NCBI GenBank assembly: GCA_020444325.1
Contig: JAHLLD010000002.1
Coordinates: 412,882-476,881, forward strand
Source of the DNA: a bacterium
GTDB taxonomy: Bacteria; Bacteroidota; Ignavibacteria; SZUA-365
DNA: 64,000 bases
Direction of reading: 5' to 3'
Under the pieces are notes generated by a model. That model saw only the letters and a list, made by a program, of their open reading frames with translations, was not told the DNA's origin and made no database searches. The translations under genes were made by a program, and so were the position numbers. Of the stretch, positions 42,551 to 54,511 are shown in pieces (positions within the stretch are counted from its first letter, which is position 1; every line of letters starts with the position of its first letter).

Positions 42551-43927
42551 TCAGCGAAGCACCATCGGATGGGCTGCGTGTATTCCGCCTCCGTGTATCT
42601 CGAGGATATGCATTCCCCTGGGCCAGGAGCTGCAGGGGAGGGACAGAACGTGTCGACCGGCGGGGAGGAGGCGTCCGGCGCAATGTTCTGCCAGGACCTC
42701 CCCTGACAGCGTGACGGCTCGGATGGTAATTGTCGATGCAGCGGGAAGCGAAATTTCAACCGAGATTGCTTCGCGGGCGGGAAGAGGGAATACGCTGCAA
42801 TGCACCCTGTCTGCCTCTTCCGGGAAGGAGGGCACGACGCAGGTCGCAGAATAGTGGCAGCTTCCATCGCGGTCCTGCTGGCGAAGTCGATATGCATATT
42901 CTGCATATTTCGAGACGCTGGTATCGCTCCACCGGTACTGCATGGGACTGCTTCTGCAGCCCTGTCCACGTATGAATCCACGATTCTCCCATTCGCTGAC
43001 TGCGCCGGTGCGCCGCTGCACGTAAAACCCATGGTTATTCAGCTCAATCGCGGTAGTCCATTGTAATTCCACCGCATCGAATTTCCGTGCGGCGCGAAAG
43101 TGCTGCAGCTCCACGGGGAGTGGCTGTGCGGCGATACTGTTGAGGTAGCGCACATCATCGACCGTGAGTTCGAGAAGATTCGCCGTGCTTTTGGCGGCAT
43201 ACCACATGAACGAGTCGATGAGCACGGAATCGGGAAGTCCTGTTTTACTGATATCGTCAGCAACACGAACACCCCCCAGCCAGATGTCACAGCATCCCGC
43301 GGCTACCGTCTGCACGCTATCGTGCACGTAGCTTCGGGATGAGTTTCCATTGTTCCCGTACAGTTCGAAAAGGAAAGCGTTTCCGCGCGCGATCTGCGCA
43401 GCGGGAAGCGGAGTCCATCCCGAGGATCTGCGTACGAGCATGGTCACCGTTCCGGCCGTGTCGATGCTCCAACGCACCCCCATGAACACCTCGGCCGAGG
43501 TAAATCCCCCGTTGTCCGAAAAGCAGCTGCCATTGCCTGCGAACAGGTAGATGTCGCCCGGCAGTCCATCGATGCGCATACTGCAGCGAAGGGTGAGTGC
43601 ATCACCGGGTGCGAAGTCGTACAGCTGCGCTTTGTTGAGTGAAGAACCGGTCGGTGCGCGCAACAGCATCTCGCTGCCGCTGCCGATGGCACTGGCGCCG
43701 GACTGCCTGAGATATACGCCTCCGCCCTGCGATCCTATGCGGACGCGTGTGTCTCCCGAGGGTGGTGCTGGCAGCAGCTGCTTTGTGACGCCCTGTGTGC
43801 AGCTGTCAACGCCCGTTCCAAAATCATAGTACCAGTGCTGCTGTGCTGCCAGCGGTGCCGTGAACGTGCTCACGTACACGATGGCGGCGAGCAGCGCAAA
43901 ACAGAATGCCTGCGTCAAGCCTCGCAT
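42551..43927 (-). CDS. Secreted protein with T9SS-type C-terminus
   Basis: Exported protein of 458 residues with a signal peptide (FALLAAIVYVSTFTAPLAAQ). The N-terminal 250 residues look like a jelly-roll beta sandwich (YDFGTGVDSCTQGVTKQLLP; IGSQGGGVYLRQSG; SMRIDGLPGDIYLFAGNGS; VLIDSFMWYAAKST). A fibronectin-like module follows (LPVELQHFRAARKFDAVELQWTT ... YAYRLRQQDRDG), then a T9SS-like end (CSVFPLPAREAISVEISLPA ... RGMHILEIHGGGIHAAHPMVLR), whose usual YPNP motif is changed to FPLP. No enzyme motif was recognised. It carries one copy of the dispersed palindrome near its fibronectin-like module. Confidence 0.75.
   Translation of the reverse strand: MRGLTQAFCFALLAAIVYVSTFTAPLAAQQHWYYDFGTGVDSCTQGVTKQLLPAPPSGDTRVRIGSQGGGVYLRQSGASAIGSGSEMLLRAPTGSSLNKAQLYDFAPGDALTLRCSMRIDGLPGDIYLFAGNGSCFSDNGGFTSAEVFMGVRWSIDTAGTVTMLVRRSSGWTPLPAAQIARGNAFLFELYGNNGNSSRSYVHDSVQTVAAGCCDIWLGGVRVADDISKTGLPDSVLIDSFMWYAAKSTANLLELTVDDVRYLNSIAAQPLPVELQHFRAARKFDAVELQWTTAIELNNHGFYVQRRTGAVSEWENRGFIRGQGCRSSPMQYRWSDTSVSKYAEYAYRLRQQDRDGSCHYSATCVVPSFPEEADRVHCSVFPLPAREAISVEISLPAASTITIRAVTLSGEVLAEHCAGRLLPAGRHVLSLPCSSWPRGMHILEIHGGGIHAAHPMVLR
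42890..42908. repeat. Dispersed palindrome copy 4 (one degenerate arm, in coding sequence)
   Basis: ATATGCAT-ATT-CTGCATAT: same 8-3-8 layout as the other copies, with one mismatch in the left arm. On the coding strand it is read as KYAEYAY. Confidence 0.5.
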
Positions 43928-43990: not shown

Positions 43991-44524
43991 TCAACATACG
44001 TCCTGCAGATGTTCGCGGCAAGGCAAACAGAAATCCGCAGGTTTGAGATCGATGTCTTCGACGTAAGTGGAGGAGTTCATCACGCAGGGCAGCTCAAGGC
44101 AGTGCCGGAGTCCGAAGGTGTGCCCGAGTTCATGCAGCGCCTCCTTGAGGCAGCGGGATTGCAGCGTCTCGGCGGCATGCGGCATACCGTAGAATTCATT
44201 GTGGAGGCGGAACGTCGAGAACAGCGCGGCGCGGTTATTGAGCTGCGCCTGCCCGAAGACGAAGGTGAGGACGGGAATGAACAGATCGTATGGGGTGATA
44301 CCGAGGACGCGCTGCTCACCCCGTTCGGGCAGTGAAACCAGGTTCGCAAGCAATTCCGTGCTGTGGTACTGCTTGCGGGACGAGTCGAGTGCGGCATCGA
44401 TATCCATGGGAATCGCCTCTACGCGGCACTGCAGGGGCAGCACCTGTTCCAGTCCCATGATGAGGGACTGGAAAGAGACATCCCGGGGATGCGCGCCGAG
44501 CGGTATAATGCGGACGACCTGCAT
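43991..44524 (-). CDS. Archaemetzincin-type zinc metallopeptidase
   Basis: Compact soluble metallopeptidase of 177 residues. The active site is HELGHTFGLRHC (His131, Glu132, His135, His141), immediately followed by the archaemetzincin cysteine set: Cys142, Cys147, and the CxxC pair Cys166/Cys169, which bind a second zinc. These signatures match archaemetzincin (AMZ, family M54). No signal peptide is seen, so it is probably cytoplasmic. The gene lies 11 bp after the sigma-54 activator gene and looks like the last gene of the redox operon. An in-frame GTG at 44533 is an alternative start; neither has a clear ribosome binding site, suggesting translational coupling. Substrate unknown. Confidence 0.88.
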   Translation of the reverse strand: MQVVRIIPLGAHPRDVSFQSLIMGLEQVLPLQCRVEAIPMDIDAALDSSRKQYHSTELLANLVSLPERGEQRVLGITPYDLFIPVLTFVFGQAQLNNRAALFSTFRLHNEFYGMPHAAETLQSRCLKEALHELGHTFGLRHCLELPCVMNSSTYVEDIDLKPADFCLPCREHLQDVC

Positions 44525-44535
44525 ACTGCGCACGG

Positions 44536-45894
44536 TCAGGGACGCTTCAGACCGTATTTTTCGATTTTGTTGTACAGTGTGACGCGGTCGATATGCAGCT
44601 GCTCGGCCGTGCGCGAAATATTCCAGTCGAAGTTAGCCAGCATACGTTCGATATGTCTCCGCTCCACGTCAGCGAGGGTAACGTCCTCTGAAGACGAGGC
44701 GGGACGTGATGCCATCTGCATCGGAAGATCGTCGGGGGTGATGGTACCCGACTTGTTGATCACCACGGCGCGTTCGATGGCATTGACGAGTTCACGCACG
44801 TTCCCGGGCCAGTCGTATGCTTTGAGAATGTCCATCGCTTCCGGGGCGATGTCGTTCACGGTCCGGTTCATCGTCCTGCAGTGCTTCTCAAGAAAATGCC
44901 GGGCAAGCTGCGGGATGTCCGTCTGCCGTTCTCGCAGAGGGGGAAGGGAAATGGTGAACACATTGATGCGGTAGAATAAATCCTCCCGGAAATTCCCGGC
45001 TTTCACCTCATCTTCGAGGTTCAGGTTGGTCGCGCAGATCAGGCGGAAATCGGCCTTCACCATGCGTTCACCGCCGACGCGGTGAAACTCGCGATCCTCA
45101 AGCACACGGAGGAGGTCGACCTGCGATTTGAGTCCGAGGGTCCCGATCTCATCAAGAAAGAGCGTGCCTCCACGGGCCATCTCGAGCTTCCCCTTGCGAC
45201 GATACTGCGCACCGGTGAACGCACCTTTTTCATGCCCGAACAGCTCGCTCTCCATGAGCGTTTCAGGGATGGCGCCGCAATTGACGGGGATAATGGGGAA
45301 GTACTTGCGTGTGCTGTTCATGTGAATGGCGCGGGCGATCAGCTCCTTGCCTGTGCCGCTTTCGCCGAGGACGAGCACGGTCGAATCGGTCGGGGCGACG
45401 GTCTTTACAAGTTCGAAAACTTTCTGCATCTGCGGACTGTCACCGACGATATCGTCAACGAACTGCAGATGATCGATGCTTTCACGCAGCGCGGTGTTTT
45501 CCCGCTGCAGGCGGATGCGATCGACAGCGTTGCGCACGAGAATGGAAAGTTCGTCCGGATCGACGGGTTTGGTCGTGTAATCGAAGGCCCCGGCTTTGAG
45601 CGCGCGCACCGCGGTATCCACTGTCGCAAACGCTGTGATGATGATGATGATCACATCCTGGTTGAACTCCCGAATCCTGTCCTGCAATGCCAGTCCGTCC
45701 ATCCCCGGCATTTTGATATCGAGCAGAATGATATCGATGTGCTGCTCCTGCATGCGTTTGAGTGCCTCCGCGGCATTTTCCGCGGTGAGCATGCTGTAGC
45801 CGTCATCCTGGAACCATGCTTCGAGTGACTGGCGAACACTCAGTTCATCGTCGACGACCATGATGGTGATTTCAGATGGATCGAATGCGCTCAT
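44536..45894 (-). CDS. NtrC-family sigma-54-dependent response regulator
   Basis: Enhancer-binding transcription activator of 452 residues. Receiver domain with phospho-Asp 59 (IILLDIKMPGMDG) and KPVDPDEL. AAA+ domain with Walker A GESGTGK (177-183), intact sigma-54 contact loop GAFTGA (224-229), Walker B GGTLFLDEIG and arginine-finger region FREDLFYRINVF. The C-terminus is a Fis-type helix-turn-helix (ERMLANFDWNISRTAEQLHIDRVTLYNKI). Its start overlaps the sensor kinase gene by four bases, so the two are a cognate pair. Since the operon begins with a sigma-54 promoter, this protein most likely activates its own operon when phosphorylated. Confidence 0.93.
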   Translation of the reverse strand: MSAFDPSEITIMVVDDELSVRQSLEAWFQDDGYSMLTAENAAEALKRMQEQHIDIILLDIKMPGMDGLALQDRIREFNQDVIIIIITAFATVDTAVRALKAGAFDYTTKPVDPDELSILVRNAVDRIRLQRENTALRESIDHLQFVDDIVGDSPQMQKVFELVKTVAPTDSTVLVLGESGTGKELIARAIHMNSTRKYFPIIPVNCGAIPETLMESELFGHEKGAFTGAQYRRKGKLEMARGGTLFLDEIGTLGLKSQVDLLRVLEDREFHRVGGERMVKADFRLICATNLNLEDEVKAGNFREDLFYRINVFTISLPPLRERQTDIPQLARHFLEKHCRTMNRTVNDIAPEAMDILKAYDWPGNVRELVNAIERAVVINKSGTITPDDLPMQMASRPASSSEDVTLADVERRHIERMLANFDWNISRTAEQLHIDRVTLYNKIEKYGLKRP

Positions 45895-47498
45895 GCGTCC
45901 TCCTGACTGTGCGTATCCGGACCGGAGATCGGGATAATGATGGTAAATTCCGCTCCCTTGCCGGGAGCGCTTTTCAGCGTGATGCGTCCCTCGTGACTCT
46001 GCACGATCCCGTAGGCAATCGAGAGCCCGAGTCCCGTTCCGTGTCCTTCTTCCTTGGTTGTGAAGAATGGCTCGAAAATGCGCTGCTGATCTTCCTGCGA
46101 GATGCCCACGCCGGTATCGGCGATCCGTATCACCGCCTGCGACTCCTGCCGCAGCAGGGCGATGCGCAGCCTGCCGCCCTCGGGCATGGATTCTATGGCG
46201 TTGATAATGATGGCGAGCACGACCTGCTGAATCTGATTCTGATCGCAGTTGACGAGAAGGGCGTCATGCGGGAGCTGTACTTCGAGATGAATCTCGTAGA
46301 GATTGATCTTGTGCTGGACGAGCTTGATCGACTTGTCCACTACTTCGCCCAGGTCTGCCTGGCTATATTTCCCTTCTCCGCCACGGGCGAAGAAGAGCAG
46401 ATTCTTCACGATGTCGCCGCAACGCCGGGCTTCGTCAGCGATCAGCTTGACCTCGTTGCCCATGCGTTCGCAGTGCTCGGCATCAACTTCACCCTTGCCG
46501 AGTCGTTTCTCGATCAGCCTTGCATAGGTGAGGATGCCTGCCAGCGGGTTATTCAGTTCATGCGCGATGATGGAGCTCAGCTTGCCGAGAGACGCCATCT
46601 TTTCCATGTGCATGATCTGTGACTGCACGCGATTGAGCTGCTGTGTCTTTTCCTCAACCTTGTCTTCAAGCGTATTCGACCATTCGACCAGCGCGGATTT
46701 TGCCCTCTGCAGTTCCCCGCTCATTTTATTGAACGAGGTCACGAGCTGCCCGAGTTCGTCTTTCCGTTCAAGGTGAATCTGATGCGAGAGGTCCCCCGCA
46801 GCCACGGCGGATGTACCGGCGATCAGCGATTTCACCGGTTTGTGCACGAAGAAATAGATGAGCAGCACACTGACCCCGGCGAGGATGAGGAACGCCGCGA
46901 GGGAGAGGAGGAAGGCGATGCGCTGCTGTGAGGCAACATGCGCGTCGGTTTCCTCGAGGGACATCTGTACGTCGAGCACGCCGAGCACTGTCTGTTTCGG
47001 ATTGTGTGCGTGACAGGGAGCCGTGGAGCAACCGGGTCGGTTTTCAATGGGAGTGATGAGTCCGAGCACTCGGTGTCCACGCGGGGAGTCATAGATACGC
47101 ATGAACTGATCGCTGCTGGTCTGCGTGAACGTCGACGATTCCCCGTGACACATGGTGCAGGCATCGGCACGCTTGTCGACCTGCGTGCCGGTCTCGCTGC
47201 GATTGGTGGAATAGCGTATGGTCCCGGTCTTGTCATAAATGCGGATTACGTCGAGCCCGGGGGCTTCCCGCATGTTTTTCACTGTTTGCCATATGTTATC
47301 CCTGTCGTTTTCCTGCATGGCATGCAGAAGGGCCGACTTGGAAAAGGTACTTGCGCGTTCGGCGCAGAGATAAATGGTGCGCTCGAGGAAGTTGTACTGC
47401 GCCTCGATATGGAGGTAGCTCACCGACAGCAGTACGATGAACATCGCCGCGAATACCGTTGCAATGATTTTGAAGCTGAGAGAATGATAGAAGCGCAT
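45891..47498 (-). CDS. Sensor histidine kinase with periplasmic haem c-type motifs
   Basis: Membrane kinase of 535 residues. TM1 is at about 9-29. The periplasmic domain has CTMCH (114-118), a canonical CxxCH haem c attachment motif, and CSTAPCH (157-163), a CxxxxCH variant. TM2 is at about 194-216, then HAMP (VKSLIAGTSAVAAGDLSHQI), a coiled coil, phospho-His 313 in IIAHELNNPLAG, and ATPase boxes (DTGVGISQEDQQRIFEPFFT, GTGLGLSIAYG). Two covalently bound haems would let it sense redox state or a gas such as NO, CO or O2; this is inference from motifs. It is directly upstream of, and overlaps, the gene for its response regulator. Confidence 0.92.
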   Translation of the reverse strand: MRFYHSLSFKIIATVFAAMFIVLLSVSYLHIEAQYNFLERTIYLCAERASTFSKSALLHAMQENDRDNIWQTVKNMREAPGLDVIRIYDKTGTIRYSTNRSETGTQVDKRADACTMCHGESSTFTQTSSDQFMRIYDSPRGHRVLGLITPIENRPGCSTAPCHAHNPKQTVLGVLDVQMSLEETDAHVASQQRIAFLLSLAAFLILAGVSVLLIYFFVHKPVKSLIAGTSAVAAGDLSHQIHLERKDELGQLVTSFNKMSGELQRAKSALVEWSNTLEDKVEEKTQQLNRVQSQIMHMEKMASLGKLSSIIAHELNNPLAGILTYARLIEKRLGKGEVDAEHCERMGNEVKLIADEARRCGDIVKNLLFFARGGEGKYSQADLGEVVDKSIKLVQHKINLYEIHLEVQLPHDALLVNCDQNQIQQVVLAIIINAIESMPEGGRLRIALLRQESQAVIRIADTGVGISQEDQQRIFEPFFTTKEEGHGTGLGLSIAYGIVQSHEGRITLKSAPGKGAEFTIIIPISGPDTHSQEDA

Positions 47499-47574: not shown

Positions 47575-48360
47575 TTATTCTCCGCCAATGAAATTGCTGA
47601 GCAGCTTCCAGTAGCGCTCCTCCCCGAGCATCTGTTCGAGTGAGGAGACAGGAGCGCCACCGTCGTTGAGGCAGGGTCCGACCATGGGGGAGGCGAGCAT
47701 CCGGGTGATACGGTCAGACAGGGTGCGGGCGCGCTTACGGATGCGACGGTCATGATTGCGGGGGGTAGACAGCTGGGCATGGGCGAGGGAAGCGACGGAA
47801 GGGGAGATGGTGACCAGCGCACCTTTTTCATAGGGTGCGGAACGCACGACGTCGGGCGTGGTGCGCAGGAAGGTATTCCTGCACACCACGGTTCCCGACA
47901 CCGGGGCAGAGAGGGGAACTGTGTGGCTCCCACCATAGACCCATCCGAATGTATCCCCTTCCTGCAGTGTCGTATGGTTTGCAACGATCACGATCTGCAG
48001 ATCATCGGGCAAGAGCGCAGCGCCGAATGCATCGAGTCCGCAGGCGACCATGCCGTTGAGCATGACGCGAGCCCAGATATGCCTTGCGCTGTACTGCATG
48101 TTCTCGCACAGGGAAATCGAGCGCAGAGGCGCCAGCAGGGGTTGCAGGCTGTCAGGCACGTCATCCGGGAGCTGAAGATCGACCTTGCGGTAGGTCAGCT
48201 CAGGATGCTCCTGCATGCAGTATGCATCGTGGTCGCGGAGGGCGGCGTCAAGCGGACAGTGTTCACAGTGAAAATTCCTGTCGCAGAGCTTGAAGTTGAG
48301 CACGCCCGCTTCAACCCAGATACATTGTTGTTCCTGCTGCGTATCGATGATAATGCCCAT
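47575..48360 (-). CDS. Soluble GcvH-like protein without lipoyl lysine, with Cys motif
   Basis: Protein of 261 residues with three parts. Residues about 18-50 contain a cysteine cluster (FKLCDRNFHCEHCPLDAALR, then another Cys) that may bind a metal or Fe-S centre. Residues about 92-190 align with glycine-cleavage H protein: YSARHIWARVMLNGMVACGL, then SAPVSGTVVCRN and SAPYEKGALVTISP. The lipoyl-lysine segment (ESVKA in GcvH) is YGGSH, so there is no lysine to modify. The C-terminus has VGPCLNDGGAPVSSLEQMLG, shared with the membrane GcvH-like protein of the operon. Start 48360 leaves a 34-bp gap after the NrfD gene; a longer frame to 48492 would overlap it. Function unknown, probably linked to the redox complex. 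Confidence 0.7.
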   Translation of the reverse strand: MGIIIDTQQEQQCIWVEAGVLNFKLCDRNFHCEHCPLDAALRDHDAYCMQEHPELTYRKVDLQLPDDVPDSLQPLLAPLRSISLCENMQYSARHIWARVMLNGMVACGLDAFGAALLPDDLQIVIVANHTTLQEGDTFGWVYGGSHTVPLSAPVSGTVVCRNTFLRTTPDVVRSAPYEKGALVTISPSVASLAHAQLSTPRNHDRRIRKRARTLSDRITRMLASPMVGPCLNDGGAPVSSLEQMLGEERYWKLLSNFIGGE

Positions 48361-48394
48361 GACGGCAGTCCGTGAGTTGCGTGCTGTTGTGAAA

Positions 48395-49612
48395 TCAGTG
48401 GCGATGCAGTTCGGCCGCGGGGTTTCCCTCAACAGGATGTGCAGCGGTCCGTTCCGGCTCGTCGTTGATACGAAGTACCGTCTCTTCTTCATGTTCCGGA
48501 AAAATCGGCAGGTACTTCACCGCATAGGCGAAGAGGACGAATCCAGCGGTGACAATCGAAATCGTGACCGCGAGTTCGCCGATGGAAGGGAAGTAGGAGG
48601 CGCCGAAGTTGTCGCGATAGTAGGCTTCCAGCGACGTCATCGTCACATTGAGGCGATTGGTCATGAAGCCGAGGACGACCGAAAAGGCCGTGAAGAAGAG
48701 TCCTGCACGCGACTGTCCCCAGCCACGGATATTGAAAAGCAGCAGCGGGACGATGAGCATGAGCGTGACTTCGAGATACAGCATGCTGGTTTCGAACGAA
48801 GGTTCGGCCAGGAAATGCAGTGCGTCGCGGCGGAAAAGGTCGATGCCGCGCATGGTCCAGTACACCAGCAGTACGCCGAGCATGATGCGCGCGAGATCAC
48901 GCAGCAGCGGCGTTTCCAGCGTCTTGCCGAATGCACGGGCACTGAGATAGGATTCGACGATGGTCATGCCGAGTCCGACACCCACGGCGCTGATGAAGAA
49001 AAACACCGGCAGCATGGGGGAGTACCAGAACGCATGCATTTTCTGCGGGACGATCAGGTAGAGAGAGCCGAGGCTGGACTGATGCAGCATCGAGAGCAGG
49101 ATACCCGCGATGATGAGCGGGATGGTGATCGCTTTCATGACTTTCAGCGCGCGATGCAGTTTGAAGCGTTCGAGCACCACGGGTGAGAATTCCAGTGCGA
49201 GCACCGTCGTGTAAATCATCACGCACATGGCGACTTCAAACAGCACCGAATGCGGATTCTGATAGATCAGGGCGTGCCAGATGGCCCAGGGACGACCAAG
49301 ATCGAAAAGCAGTCCCACGATGACCAGACTGTAGCCGAGAAAGGCCGTCAGGATGGCGGGACGCACGATGGGTTTGAAACGTTTGAGATGAAAGATGTAG
49401 ACGATTCCGGCAAGTGTGAATCCACCTGCGGCGAGTCCGACTCCGGTGACGACGTCGAAGCCGATCCACAGACCCCACGGGGTGATGTCGGAGAGGTTTG
49501 TCGCCGCTCCGAGTCCCCAGCCGAAGCGGATAATGGTCGCCGTGAGTCCCCCGAGGAGGAACACGGCTGCCGTGACTTTCCAGAAGGTAATGCGCGGCAT
49601 TGCGAGTTTCAT
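48395..49612 (-). CDS. NrfD/HybB family quinone-interacting membrane subunit
   Basis: Integral membrane protein of 405 residues with about ten helices, starting with FWKVTAAVFLLGGLTATIIRF and including the conserved NITPWGLWIGFDV-like segment (DITPWGLWIGFDVVTGVGLA), HSVLFEVAMCVMIYTTVLALE and SLGSLYLIVPQKMHAFWYSP. These match the HybB branch of the NrfD/PsrC family, which exchanges electrons between the quinone pool and an Fe-S partner without haem. It sits 10 bp after the Fe-S protein gene, its expected electron partner. No hydrogenase, molybdopterin or other catalytic subunit is encoded in the cluster, so the electron donor or acceptor is unknown. Confidence 0.92.
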   Translation of the reverse strand: MKLAMPRITFWKVTAAVFLLGGLTATIIRFGWGLGAATNLSDITPWGLWIGFDVVTGVGLAAGGFTLAGIVYIFHLKRFKPIVRPAILTAFLGYSLVIVGLLFDLGRPWAIWHALIYQNPHSVLFEVAMCVMIYTTVLALEFSPVVLERFKLHRALKVMKAITIPLIIAGILLSMLHQSSLGSLYLIVPQKMHAFWYSPMLPVFFFISAVGVGLGMTIVESYLSARAFGKTLETPLLRDLARIMLGVLLVYWTMRGIDLFRRDALHFLAEPSFETSMLYLEVTLMLIVPLLLFNIRGWGQSRAGLFFTAFSVVLGFMTNRLNVTMTSLEAYYRDNFGASYFPSIGELAVTISIVTAGFVLFAYAVKYLPIFPEHEEETVLRINDEPERTAAHPVEGNPAAELHRH

Positions 49613-49622
49613 GATGTTCTCC

Positions 49623-50528
49623 TCAGGATGATTTCTTGGAACGGTTTTTCTTTACTTCGTCCTCATAGCGTTTGACGTCGTCGCGGCGGTTGGTGATCCA
49701 GTACACGGCACCGAGCGCCACGCCGGCTGTCACGACAATATCAGGAATTTTCTCCAGCACGTTCCAGGTCTTCTGGGGGAGCGCTTCGTCCCCGACCTTG
49801 GTGCTGAAGCCGAGGCTTTCAAAAGAAACACCTGAGATATAAAACACCGAGGTTCCGCCGACTTCCTTCTGTCCGTAGACGCGGGGAACGTAGTCGTCGG
49901 GATTGTCGACGATGCGGCGGCGTGCTTCGGCCAGCAGCTCGTCGCGGTCACCGAAGATCGTGGCTTCGGCGGGACATGCCACCGAACATGCGGAAGCACG
50001 TTTGTCATCATAGTTCGTGGTCATTTCCACGATGGTATCGCGCTCTTCGGCCGTAATCTCGCGTCCATCGACCGTGACGCGTTCGCCACGCTTGTTGACG
50101 ACATAACCTTCCTTGTCCACCGCCATATCGGCCGTGATGTGGCGTTCCTGGTAGCACATCGTGCATTTGCGGACCTTGGGGGAGAGGCTGTCCCATTCAT
50201 ACTTCGGGATGTCAAACGGACAGGCGAGCATGCAGTAACGGCAGCCGATGCACTTGTTGGCATCCCAGGTTACCGCACCGTCTTTTGTTTTCTCCAGCGC
50301 GCCGACGAGGCACACCGACGCGCAGGCGGGATCCTGGCAGTGCCGGCACATCTGGCGGATGTACACTTCGCCGACATCTTCGTTCTCGACGGTTTTCAAC
50401 GTGGTAAAACACTTCGCGCCGAGGCAGGCTTCTTCGTTTTCGGGAAATTTATGAATTTGCTGGCAGGCGTCGCGGCAGGCACCGCAACCGACACATGCCG
50501 TCAAATCCACGAGTATAGCGTGCGACAT
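49623..50528 (-). CDS. HybA/DmsB-like four-cluster ferredoxin subunit with C-terminal anchor
   Basis: Fe-S electron-transfer protein of 301 residues. It has four Cys groups for [4Fe-4S] clusters: CVGCGACRDAC (from residue 12), CRHCQDPACASVC, CIGCRYCMLACPF, and the split CTMC ... CSVACP. There is no Tat signal peptide (HybA proteins normally have one), and a hydrophobic segment, IVVTAGVALGAVYWI, near the C-terminus may anchor it, followed by a basic tail. It would pass electrons to the NrfD-type subunit encoded next. The lack of a signal suggests the cytoplasmic side, or a non-standard topology. It lies 50 bp after the membrane GcvH-like gene. Confidence 0.92.
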   Translation of the reverse strand: MSHAILVDLTACVGCGACRDACQQIHKFPENEEACLGAKCFTTLKTVENEDVGEVYIRQMCRHCQDPACASVCLVGALEKTKDGAVTWDANKCIGCRYCMLACPFDIPKYEWDSLSPKVRKCTMCYQERHITADMAVDKEGYVVNKRGERVTVDGREITAEERDTIVEMTTNYDDKRASACSVACPAEATIFGDRDELLAEARRRIVDNPDDYVPRVYGQKEVGGTSVFYISGVSFESLGFSTKVGDEALPQKTWNVLEKIPDIVVTAGVALGAVYWITNRRDDVKRYEDEVKKNRSKKSS

Positions 50529-50578
50529 TGTTGTCTCCTGGATGAAAGTGGAACAATTCGATTGAAGGTGACCGGTTC

Positions 50579-51253
50579 TCAGCGCAGAAACTGCTCTTCA
50601 AAGGTCTGCAGATGCTCTTCATCGAGATGTTCCAGGGCTCCGGAAACAGGCACACCGCCGTCGAGCATCGACTCTCCGACCGTGGCCGGCTGTGCAATGC
50701 TGCTGCCGAGGAATTCACGGAAACGCTTGATTTCACTTTTAATCCAGCTCACGGCGCTTTCGGCCACGCGCAGCAGGCTCAGGTTTGCGGCGAGTTCCGC
50801 CGGTTCCACCATCATGAGCCAACCCTCGCGATAGGGATTCTCGGCCACAACGCTCGGATTTTCTACCGCATCGCGGTTGATGGCGCGCACGTATCCGCTG
50901 GCGGGAGCCACGAGCGAAACCCTGCGGCTTCCGTGATGCAGCGTGATTACAGGATCGCCCTGACGCACGAATTCCCCGACCATCGGCAGCTGCATGCTGT
51001 CTATGCCGCCGAGCGCTTTCTGTACGAAATCGTCGACGCCGACCTCGAGCTGATCACCGTCCTGCAGACGCGCCCAGGTGTGGCCGGGGTGGAAGAATAC
51101 ACTTTTAGGAATGCGCACGGTTTCTTTACCATGCACGTTGCTGCCTCCTTCAGGAACAGCGCCCATGATGGGATAACGGCGGCTGCGAGCCTGAATGATG
51201 AGATCGATAGCCAGTAGAACGGCCACGAACAAGATGACGAATAAGGCAACCAT
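50579..51253 (-). CDS. Membrane-anchored GcvH-like protein without lipoyl lysine
   Basis: Protein of 224 residues and first gene of the redox operon. An N-terminal helix (VALFVILFVAVLLAIDLII) anchors it. A GcvH-like domain follows: VFFHPGHTWARLQDGDQLEV, GVDDFVQKALGGI, VAPASGYVRAIN and ENPYREGWLMMVEP. In GcvH the lipoyl lysine is in ESVKA; here the position reads HHGSR, without lysine. The C-terminal region TVGESMLDGGVPVSGALEHL matches that of the soluble GcvH-like protein downstream. ATG 51253 has GGAG six bases upstream; an in-frame TTG at 51298 is less likely. The sigma-54 promoter is about 65 bp upstream. A structural or carrier role in the Fe-S/NrfD complex is plausible but unproven. Confidence 0.75.
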   Translation of the reverse strand: MVALFVILFVAVLLAIDLIIQARSRRYPIMGAVPEGGSNVHGKETVRIPKSVFFHPGHTWARLQDGDQLEVGVDDFVQKALGGIDSMQLPMVGEFVRQGDPVITLHHGSRRVSLVAPASGYVRAINRDAVENPSVVAENPYREGWLMMVEPAELAANLSLLRVAESAVSWIKSEIKRFREFLGSSIAQPATVGESMLDGGVPVSGALEHLDEEHLQTFEEQFLR

Positions 51254-51316
51254 GATGAACTCCAGTACTTGGTGGATGGGTGTTGCGACTTTCAACAATC
51301 TTCTGTTGAATTTTAC

Positions 51317-51333
51317 TGCAATTCCCGTACCAA
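51317..51333 (-). promoter_or_regulatory. Sigma-54 (RpoN) -24/-12 promoter of the redox operon
   Basis: On the minus strand TTGGTACGGGAATTGCA fits the sigma-54 consensus YTGGCACGrNNNTTGCW at every defined base except one (T for C in the -24 box), with exact spacing. Transcription would start about 12 bases downstream, near 51306, giving a leader of about 50 bases before the first gene. Confidence 0.75.
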
Positions 51334-51669
51334 ATTGAGAACAAATGCACGAACTTGCGCATGTGCAGTAATATCATATAGATAGATGACAATTCCTTCA
51401 TGCACGGAAATCCGGAAAATTGAGCACTGTAGAAAAAATCAGCAGGGGAAATTGCTCCCCATGAAGAAATGGTGCATTAAATCATGAAAAAACAATGGAC
51501 TAATGTGCTGTTTAAATATTCAACAGCGAGTGAGGAGCAATTCAACAGGGAATTCGAGGCGATCTGAGGGTGGCAGGATTGGCAACTATGGAATTTTTTC
51601 CCTGATATATTGAAACAGACACTTTTCTCCCGTAATTTACGGCGCCCAAATTTTCAGGAGTCTGTTTAT
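51334..51669. other. Regulatory intergenic region between the redox operon and divergent regulator
   Basis: No gene. TGCGCATGTGCA (51356-51367) is a near-perfect 12-bp palindrome and, with TGCAC at 51346-51350, could be an enhancer site for an NtrC-type activator, although it is closer to the sigma-54 promoter than most. The rest is AT-rich (51370-51620). TTGGCA at 51579-51584 has no matching -12 or -10 at standard spacing, so the divergent promoter is not identified. Confidence 0.4.
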
Positions 51670-53100
51670 ATGGAAGGCCTCGACAAGTATCGTGGGATGA
51701 AAATTCTCATTGTGGACGATGAGGAGGATATGTGCATCCTGCTCAAGCGGCTGTTCGAGCGTCATGGACTGATGTCCATGATGGCGATGGATGGGGATTC
51801 GGCGCTCGAGTTGTTTCGCAAGGATGAACCTGATGCGGTGGTCCTCGACATTCTCATGCCGCGGATGGATGGACGCGAGGTCATGCTCCGCATGCGCCGT
51901 ATGAATCCGGAAGTGCCGGTCATCTTCATGACGGCGCTTGCTGGCGTCCCGGGTGCCGTCGATGCGATGAAGGCGGGGGCCTTCGACTATGTCGCCAAGC
52001 CTTTCGAGACGACGGAGATTCTTGAAGTCATTGATCGTGCGCTCGATGAACGTCTGCTTCGCAGGAAGTATCAGGGAAATCAGAGCAGCGCGCCGAAAAA
52101 GCAGGACAGTCTGCTCCAGAACATGGGGACCAGCGATGTGGTGGTGGAATTGACCGCGACGACGAAGCATATCGCACAGTCCCAATTCGACATCCTCATC
52201 CAGGGTGAGGCAGGGACGGGAAAATCGCTGGTTGCCCGTGCTCTGCACGACAACAGCGAGCGTGCGTCAAAGCCTTTTGTTTCCATAGCCTGCGACGCGC
52301 CATCCGAAGAAGTGCTTGAACGTGAGCTGTTCGGATACGAGCGTGGCGCCTTCCCGGAAGCGGAAGATGGCCAGTCGGGGAAATTCGAAGCGGCTCACGG
52401 CGGGACGCTGTTCCTGGACGAAATTTCCGCCTTCCCGCCGCGACTGCAGGGCAAGCTGCTGCGCTGCCTGCAGAATAAGAGCGTGGTGCGTATGGGCAGC
52501 GACGCGGGTATCCCGGTCGATGTGCGGCTCGTGGTCTCCACCAGCAAAGACCTCAATATATTAGTAGAAGAAAAACGTTTCCGTGCGGATCTTTTCTACC
52601 GTCTCAGTGAATTCAGTCTTTTCGTTCCCTCCCTTCGCGAGAGGAAAACAGATATTCCCTACCTTTCAAGCCGCTTCCTGCATCTTAACAATCAGGAACT
52701 GAACAAGGCTATTTCCGGCTTTACACCGAAAGCCATCGAAAAAATGCTGGCCTACAACTGGCCTGGTAACGTCGCGCAGCTGAAATCCGTCGTGCGACGC
52801 GCCGTGATGTTCGCTGAGGAGTTCGTGACCGCTGAACAGCTCGACCTGGAAATGGATGCCGAGCGCCGGGCACGGGCCGCGCTGACCGCGGCTGAAATCG
52901 ATGAAAGCGATCTCGACCAGGGAATCTCACTCAAGGATCACGTGCGCAAGCACACCGCCCACGTCGAACGGCAGATTCTGCTCGAGACGCTCAAGCGTAC
53001 GGGCTGGAACAAGGCCAAGGCGGCTCGCATCCTGCAGATCGATTACAAGACCATGCAGACCAAGGTCAAGGAATACAAATTGCAGGATCCCCAGGCCTAG
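51670..53100 (+). CDS. NtrC-type response regulator with degenerate GAFTGA loop
   Basis: Regulator of 476 residues: receiver (phospho-Asp 60 in VVLDILMPRMDG), AAA+ domain and Fis-type DNA-binding end (LLETLKRTGWNKAKAARILQIDYKTMQ). Walker A GEAGTGKS (179-186), Walker B LFLDE (247-251) and the RADLFYRL arginine-finger region look functional. The loop that contacts sigma-54, normally GAFTGA, is GAFPEA (226-231), with the critical Thr and Gly replaced. Known NtrC relatives with altered loops act without sigma-54 (for example HupR- and TyrR-type). CAGGAG ten bases upstream supports ATG 51670. It is divergent from the redox operon and is followed 16 bp later by a YfcC-type carrier gene. Confidence 0.85.
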   Translation: MEGLDKYRGMKILIVDDEEDMCILLKRLFERHGLMSMMAMDGDSALELFRKDEPDAVVLDILMPRMDGREVMLRMRRMNPEVPVIFMTALAGVPGAVDAMKAGAFDYVAKPFETTEILEVIDRALDERLLRRKYQGNQSSAPKKQDSLLQNMGTSDVVVELTATTKHIAQSQFDILIQGEAGTGKSLVARALHDNSERASKPFVSIACDAPSEEVLERELFGYERGAFPEAEDGQSGKFEAAHGGTLFLDEISAFPPRLQGKLLRCLQNKSVVRMGSDAGIPVDVRLVVSTSKDLNILVEEKRFRADLFYRLSEFSLFVPSLRERKTDIPYLSSRFLHLNNQELNKAISGFTPKAIEKMLAYNWPGNVAQLKSVVRRAVMFAEEFVTAEQLDLEMDAERRARAALTAAEIDESDLDQGISLKDHVRKHTAHVERQILLETLKRTGWNKAKAARILQIDYKTMQTKVKEYKLQDPQA

Positions 53101-53116
53101 GAGCTGAGCTGCGTCA

Positions 53117-54511
53117 ATGTCGCTGGTCAAGAAAGTCCCCAACGTATTTGTCATCGTCTTTTCCCTCATTATTCTCGCGGCCGTGGCAACATGGGTGCTG
53201 CCCGGCGGTGCATTTGATCGTACGTCCGAAGATGTGGGCGGCGTCTCGCGTGAGGTGCTGGTCGAGGGCTCCTATCACGCAGTGGATGCCGTGCCGCAGA
53301 CCTGGGAGGTATTCACGGCGCCGATGGACGGCTTCCTGCGTCTTGCCGAAATTATCGCCTTCATTTTCCTCGTCGGCGGTGCGTTTTCCATACTCAATGA
53401 AACCGGTGCCATCGCGGCAGGAACCAGGCAGCTAGTGCGCAAGCTCGAAGGCAGGGAATTCCTCATCATTCCCATCGTGATGACCTTCTTCTCGCTGTTC
53501 GGCGCGGTGTTCGGCATGTGCGAAGAGGCGATGCCCTTCGTCCTCATCTTCGTCCCTCTTGCTCTCTCGCTCGGCTACGATTCTTTCGTTGGCGTGAGTC
53601 TGACCTTCCTGGCGGCGGGAGTCGGTTTTGCCGGCGCCTTCATTAACCCATTCACGCTGCAGATTGCACAGGGACTCGCAGGCGTACCTCTCGTCTCGGG
53701 CTGGGAATACCGCGTGATCGTCTGGGTGCTGATTACCGGGGGCAGTATCGCCTGGGTGATGGTCTATGCGGCACGAATTAAAAAAGATCCGACCCGCTCG
53801 CTGATGTATGAACTGGACAATGAGCGGCGGAAGGAAATCCAGCAGAAGCAGATGGAGCAGGGGGACTTCTCCGGCAGGCATGTTGCCACGCTCCTCATTC
53901 TCCTCGGTGGCGTCATTGGGATGATTTTCGGCGTGACCATGTATGGCTGGTATATCACGGAGCTGTCGGCGCTGTTTCTTGCCATGGGCGTGCTTGCCGG
54001 TGTGGTGTCGCGGCAGTCGCCCAACGACCTCGCGAAGCATTTCATCATGGGGGTGAAGGACATGACCAGCGCGGCCATGATCGTCGGTTTTGCCGGTGGG
54101 ATTATCGTGCTTCTCGAAGACGGACATGTCATGGATACCATTCTCTACGGGATGTCGCGTGTGACTTCAAACATGCCGCGCATGCTCTCTGCCGACGCCA
54201 TGTATGGCATGCAGATGGCGCTGAACTTCTTCATCCCTTCGGGCTCCACCAAGGCGGCGCTCACCATGCCCATCATGGGTCCCCTCGCAGATCTGTCGGG
54301 ACTGACCCGCCAGACCGCTGTGCTCGCCTATCAACTGGGGGATGGATTCACGAACATGATTATTCCCACCTCCGGTGTCACCATTGGGACGCTCACCATG
54401 GCGAAAATTCCCTACGACCGCTGGTTCAAATGGCATCTCCCCATGCAGGTATTCTTTTTCGTACTCTCGCTGCTTCTTCTCGTCTGGCCCGTGCTTACGC
54501 ACTGGCAGTAG
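53117..54511 (+). CDS. YfcC family (DcuC-like) membrane carrier
   Basis: Membrane protein of 464 residues with about 12 helices, starting VFVIVFSLIILAAVATWVLPGGAF, a typical opening of the YfcC/arginine-ornithine or C4-dicarboxylate anaerobic carrier (ion transporter) families. Further landmarks are FIFLVGGAFSILNETGAI, FFSLFGAVFGMCEEAMPFVLIF, NFFIPSGSTKAALTMPIMGP and LGDGFTNMIIPTSG. The two re-entrant-type segments (EEAMPF and PSGSTKA) are where substrate is bound in this superfamily. It follows the GAFPEA regulator by 16 bp, so the two are probably cotranscribed. Substrate could be a dicarboxylate or amino acid. Its last 17 bp overlap the convergent methyltransferase gene. Confidence 0.85.
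   Translation: MSLVKKVPNVFVIVFSLIILAAVATWVLPGGAFDRTSEDVGGVSREVLVEGSYHAVDAVPQTWEVFTAPMDGFLRLAEIIAFIFLVGGAFSILNETGAIAAGTRQLVRKLEGREFLIIPIVMTFFSLFGAVFGMCEEAMPFVLIFVPLALSLGYDSFVGVSLTFLAAGVGFAGAFINPFTLQIAQGLAGVPLVSGWEYRVIVWVLITGGSIAWVMVYAARIKKDPTRSLMYELDNERRKEIQQKQMEQGDFSGRHVATLLILLGGVIGMIFGVTMYGWYITELSALFLAMGVLAGVVSRQSPNDLAKHFIMGVKDMTSAAMIVGFAGGIIVLLEDGHVMDTILYGMSRVTSNMPRMLSADAMYGMQMALNFFIPSGSTKAALTMPIMGPLADLSGLTRQTAVLAYQLGDGFTNMIIPTSGVTIGTLTMAKIPYDRWFKWHLPMQVFFFVLSLLLLVWPVLTHWQ

Follow-up and report, generated by a model that had tools for sequence, protein, structure and literature searches.

Lipoyl-lysine-free GcvH-like proteins encoded with an NrfD-type quinone module and a diheme two-component system

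Introduction

What is the function of two GcvH-like proteins that have lost the lipoyl lysine and are encoded in one operon with an NrfD-type membrane subunit, an Fe-S protein and a two-component system? We address this question for proteins A and B, encoded on the minus strand of the window, by which we mean the whole 64,000-nucleotide stretch of DNA analysed here. A preliminary description, made from the sequence alone, had claimed that both proteins lost the lipoyl lysine in favour of a Gly-Ser motif while keeping the surrounding fold signatures, that both end in a DGGxPVS tail unlike ordinary H proteins, and had suggested that they form a duplicated subfamily with changed function, not the product of random decay. 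It was silent on the operon context, on fusions to receiver (REC) domains and on the Cys4 domain of A, which together hold the bulk of the functional information.

Results

The operon and its promoter

Seven genes follow one another on the minus strand, in this order:

50579..51253, minus strand: protein B, 224 aa, with an N-terminal TM helix, lipoyl-less GcvH-like domain, helix and DGG tail
49623..50528, minus strand: HmcB/HybA-like 4Fe-4S protein (NF045715, HmcB, 227.8 bits vs cutoff 420; no Tat signal seen)
48395..49612, minus strand: NrfD-like membrane quinone subunit (PF03916, 1.8e-21; score/cutoff 327.7/550 for HmcC and 288/450 for the HybB-type model)
47575..48360, minus strand: protein A, 261 aa, with Cys4 motif, lipoyl-less GcvH-like domain and DGG tail
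45891..47498, minus strand: sensor histidine kinase (Pfam HAMP/HisKA/HATPase) with two c-type heme motifs, CTMCH and CSTAPCH, in the periplasmic region
44536..45894, minus strand: sigma-54 response regulator, REC-AAA-Fis
43991..44533, minus strand: archaemetzincin, peptidase M54 (PF07998, 9.4e-22; NF033823, 149.7 vs cutoff 145, met), single copy in the genome

The open reading frames of A and B were both judged real. The start of B at 51253, as placed by the preliminary description, held, and that of A was set by homology at 48360 (261 aa), with a 305-aa ORF opening further upstream. The pair of c-type heme motifs recurs in 71 of 80 long kinases at such loci. A Tat motif is absent from most Fe-S proteins of this first locus type and present in some more distant ones. 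Neither gcvT nor gcvP is found among the operon neighbours, which are NrfD, the Fe-S protein, kinase, regulator and M54; an ordinary GcvH is encoded elsewhere in the genome.

Two elements lie upstream of B:

51317..51332, minus strand: sigma-54 promoter TGGTACGGGAATTGCA, 79 bases upstream of the B ATG
51291..51310, minus strand: 5'UTR inverted repeat TTCAACA-N6-TGTTGAA, perfect over 7 bp, at a single place in the genome

The promoter motif is the sole site of such score in the window and one of 8 strict matches genome-wide, and each of the nine loci compared, from the genus and the family, has a -24/-12-like element between -79 and -84. A shared sigma-54 regulon was rejected, since the seven other strict matches lie at genes without evident link. 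The inverted repeat is similar in relatives; formation of an RNA structure at this site was discarded because its folding z-score was not significant. On the far sides of the operon we additionally observed a divergent sigma-54 regulator with a DcuC-type transporter (51610-54511), kept beside the operon in genus and family, and a protein with a secretion-sorting-like C-terminus (42551-43927), adjoining the M54 gene.

M54 genes are present in 54 of 119 genomes of the class, and 57 of 74, by approximate count, lie within 15 kb of GcvH-like genes. Among ten located away from such genes most adjoin the same kinase and regulator or a Qrc-type cluster, and four have no such partners (L215, L216, L217, L223). 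As a separate observation, M54 is closely linked to this operon type throughout the class.

Fold, lipoyl position and topology of A and B

Agreement between Pfam, PDB sequence alignments and AlphaFold models establishes the GcvH fold of both proteins by sequence and by model prediction. Pfam GCV_H (PF01597) matches B with 4.9e-18 and A with 3.1e-13, and the predicted models (pLDDT 79.6 for B and 80.5 for A) find GcvH structures as their top PDB matches, with a TMt of 0.91 for B. The segments discussed in the following are:

50921..50938, minus strand: degenerate lipoyl hairpin of B (HHGSRR), Ser109 at the lysine position
47923..47937, minus strand: degenerate lipoyl hairpin of A (YGGSH), Ser145 at the lysine position
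50582..50686, minus strand: C-terminal DGG tail of B, from conservation in relatives and A/B profile alignment
47578..47679, minus strand: C-terminal DGG tail of A, from the same two sources
48256..48324, minus strand: Cys4 motif of A, with C13, C26, C32 and C35: CIWVEAGVLNFKLCDRNFHCEHC

In the PDB alignments ESVK lies opposite YGGS in A and HHGS in B, so that both proteins carry serine where GcvH has its lipoyl lysine, as had been claimed. The fold signatures around it were likewise confirmed, with HxW, APxSG and NPYxxGW residues in common with GcvH. Profile-to-profile alignment of A with B spans 187 columns and runs through the tail (E 2e-34). For the tails, no significant Pfam or NCBIfam match to named domains was obtained.

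Basic residues come after the N-terminal helix of B, an arrangement suggesting that its GcvH domain lies in the cytoplasm. From this inferred topology, B is probably membrane-anchored with its domain facing the cytoplasm, and A is probably soluble. The four cysteines of A are invariant in the alignment of A-type proteins (A2), and the motif occurs in 49 of 55 A-type matches; some A-type proteins (L080, L082) lack it. It has no PDB match and no significant Pfam or NCBIfam match; no conserved cysteine is found in the alignment of B relatives. We infer that this module likely binds a metal. A short 64-aa ORF in another genome (G031:C4:12598-12729) consists of the Cys4 motif alone.

Conservation and phylogeny

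Relatives were collected by a search of genome contigs with a 9-row alignment. Among 188 non-redundant relatives the lipoyl column holds G (51), N (37), D (25), K (22), E (18), S (14) and others, compared with K in 23 of 23 ordinary GcvH proteins. Gly-Ser as a family signature therefore failed: it is a local state at a position that is unconstrained across relatives. No column of the hairpin exceeds about 20% lysine in these 188 sequences, and lipoylation at another, conserved hairpin lysine, which would have refuted the claimed loss, is rejected. Modification of the few relatives with lysine in the aligned column (22/188) is not excluded. The DGG tail is found in 150 of 155 non-fused family members and in none of 23 canonical GcvH proteins, and both tail and fold residues are kept across phyla. 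The tail thus held as a feature absent from ordinary H proteins; of the proposed DGGxPVS motif only DGG forms the core, xPVS being partly conserved.

The tree, built from 146 domains, has a branch (support 100/98) that divides the ordinary GcvH proteins from the whole set of lipoyl-less members. A clusters with A-type sequences of other taxa and B falls among B-type proteins; since each lies among its own relatives from other taxa, they are ancient paralogues. The duplication suggested before is thus supported, albeit as an old event, and the tree branch, the conserved tail and fold residues and the cross-phylum synteny support a subfamily with changed function. It should be noted that the tree rests on just 108 columns, with deep forks poorly resolved and the root undetermined.

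Distribution, receiver fusions and a second locus type

All gene classes were present in 28 of 59 loci, a count from which loci at contig ends were not removed. The complete loci include Ignavibacteria-type MAGs, Kryptonium, Poribacteria, an acidobacterial-type genome (HR10; we take HR08 and HR10 to be Acidobacteriota), Bacteroidota (Prolixibacteraceae) and Eisenbacteria; partial loci occur in Calditrichota, Blastocatellia, Terriglobia and Neomarinimicrobiota. The loci were found via B, so that the counts are biased, and many of the genomes are MAGs. In a Poribacteria MAG (L112:9357-11594) we also observed NrfD fused to a multiheme cytochrome c.

REC-GcvH and TM-REC-GcvH fusions, both domains assigned by Pfam, occur in more than ten genera beside diheme kinase, NrfD and HybA; A and B of the window are themselves without REC. 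In fusion loci, including L091:6477-8451, L101, L103 and L086, HybA, NrfD and diheme kinase lie upstream of the fusion, and HybA of L091 carries a Tat-like signal. The inspected receivers of REC-GcvH relatives retain the DD and D residues that a phosphoacceptor should have. In loci of a second type (L084:3333-13386, L085, L092, L094) two GcvH-like genes flank Qrc-type genes, and the same kind of kinase, M54 gene and regulator lies alongside; in L084, QrcA and QrcD score over their NCBIfam cutoffs, QrcB and QrcC under them. Some loci (L124, L130, L161) contain two GcvH-like genes, kinase, regulator and M54 with no NrfD nearby, and some others (L143, L151) contain B, HybA and NrfD with no identified kinase nearby.

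Discussion

We propose that A and B are non-lipoylated GcvH-fold adaptor or regulatory subunits, not acyl or aminomethyl carriers, which would connect two-component signalling with a quinone-linked NrfD module. This reading, in which docking and signal direction are inferred, has in our view as much chance of being wrong as of being right. In such a model the NrfD and HmcB-type Fe-S module would exchange electrons with menaquinone, A and B would serve as its docking link to the neighbouring two-component system, and the kinase would sense periplasmic redox state via its two c-hemes and drive the sigma-54 regulator, which would activate the operon's own promoter, autoregulation being inferred as well. 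Fold, loss of the lysine, tail, operon organisation, promoter motif, tree and REC fusions rest on sequence; membrane topology and metal binding are, like docking and signal direction, inferences. The archaemetzincin would be a conserved accessory, possibly for turnover. The recurrence of the quinone module and the heme two-component partners, together with the REC fusions, speaks for docking or regulation, rather than carrier chemistry, as the role of the GcvH-like proteins. The loci with GcvH-like genes, kinase, regulator and M54 that lack NrfD tie the GcvH-like proteins to the signalling part, and the receiver fusions tie the domain directly to phosphosignalling. The adaptor reading is further supported by a lysine column left unconstrained while fold residues and tail are kept, by the recovery of the seven-gene operon in several phyla, by the Qrc-type loci with their kinase, M54 and regulator, and by the sigma-54 promoter kept in nine loci. 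It is weakened by resting on no interaction, redox or phosphotransfer data, by the absence of REC from A and B themselves and by the 22 relatives with lysine in the aligned column, for which modification stays possible, and the loci without a kinase nearby (L143, L151) favour a structural subunit. It is also possible that kinase and regulator control transcription only, never touching A or B.

The main rival, which we hold to be more probably wrong than right, is that A and B would be purely structural or assembly subunits of a menaquinone oxidoreductase (NrfD plus Fe-S protein, sometimes Qrc), with the two-component system regulating expression only. It is supported by NrfD and Fe-S genes adjoining A/B-type genes in most loci, by the GcvH-like pair flanking Qrc genes in the second locus type, by the inferred membrane anchor of B, and by some Acidobacteriota loci without a kinase nearby. 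Against it, both the REC-GcvH and TM-REC-GcvH fusions and the loci without NrfD point to signalling.

Unlikely, though not without support, is a third explanation, in which A and B carry a cofactor at another residue or via the Cys4 motif of A (as Fe-S or Zn) and pass on electrons, sulfur or an acyl group. The four invariant cysteines of A and the action of the related carrier LbpA in sulfur oxidation (PMC6067878) speak for it; the absence of a conserved hairpin lysine, the lack of conserved cysteines in B, the missing Cys4 motif in some A-type proteins and the possibility that the Cys4 site is equally well a structural Zn site speak against it. That A and B are decayed GcvH copies without specific function, as loss of the lipoyl lysine might suggest, can practically be dismissed, given that the tail, the Cys4 motif, the order of the operon and its promoter are conserved in different phyla and that one old clade stands separate from GcvH.

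Returning to the adaptor reading, a bolder version, which we offer only tentatively and would sooner doubt than accept, regards the lipoyl-free GcvH domain as a new signal-coupling domain, with phosphorylation of REC-GcvH shifting the domain on or off the quinone-linked NrfD/Fe-S module. If true, this would be a direct post-translational link from a heme-sensing kinase to a respiratory complex, and the archaemetzincin would be one more component.

The subfamily and its context are apparently undescribed, as no description was found in the papers searched. This literature contained no paper treating both GcvH and NrfD and none treating archaemetzincin together with a histidine kinase, and searches for GcvH with a receiver domain or with Qrc yielded unrelated papers only. 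The proteins meet general GcvH models (Pfam GCV_H) and are thus easily misread as glycine-cleavage H proteins. The system, shared by several phyla, brings together the redox chemistry of quinones, sensing by c-hemes and control by sigma-54, and the operon places bacterial archaemetzincins, about whose biological role little is known, in a genomic context.

Comparison with known systems

With GcvH (TIGR00527/PF01597), A and B share the fold, the domain length and the HxW, APxSG and NPYxxGW residues, but differ in the missing lipoyl lysine, the added tail and the TM or Cys4 N-terminus; with 63.3 and 41.3, both fall far short of the TIGR00527 equivalog cutoff of 115.85. Models for not_gcvH (TIGR03077) and GcvH_rel_desulf (NF045810) were rejected, with 42.8/144 and 33.9/150 for B and 23.8/150 for A. 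LbpA of sHdr sulfur oxidation (PMC6067878) is likewise GcvH-like, often paired and linked to redox gene clusters. However, its lipoyl lysine is strictly conserved, its cysteine pattern differs, and it belongs to an Hdr-like cluster instead of one with NrfD and kinase. No Hdr-type gene is among the named operon neighbours, and membership of A and B in LbpA was rejected for want of a conserved lipoyl lysine and an sHdr gene cluster.

The Fe-S and NrfD genes find their best named models in the membrane pairs HmcB/HmcC of Hmc and HybA/HybB of hydrogenase-2, yet score under the cutoffs, and the operon is without Hmc cytochrome, hydrogenase or HdrD-like gene. Qrc (QrcABCD) is approached in the second locus type only, where QrcA and QrcD pass; the window operon has neither QrcA nor QrcB, and its NrfD reaches 138.6/570 with the QrcD model. 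The window M54 protein shows the archaemetzincin motif HExxHxxGxxHCx4CxM...CxxC (PMC3427221), except that its last cysteine pair is spaced 16, not 17; at such loci 63 of 64 M54 proteins fit a relaxed cysteine spacing and none has exactly 17. Membrane-fusion proteins, a different family, employ a lipoyl-type fold as an adaptor without cofactor. A and B would represent a testable new use of this fold.
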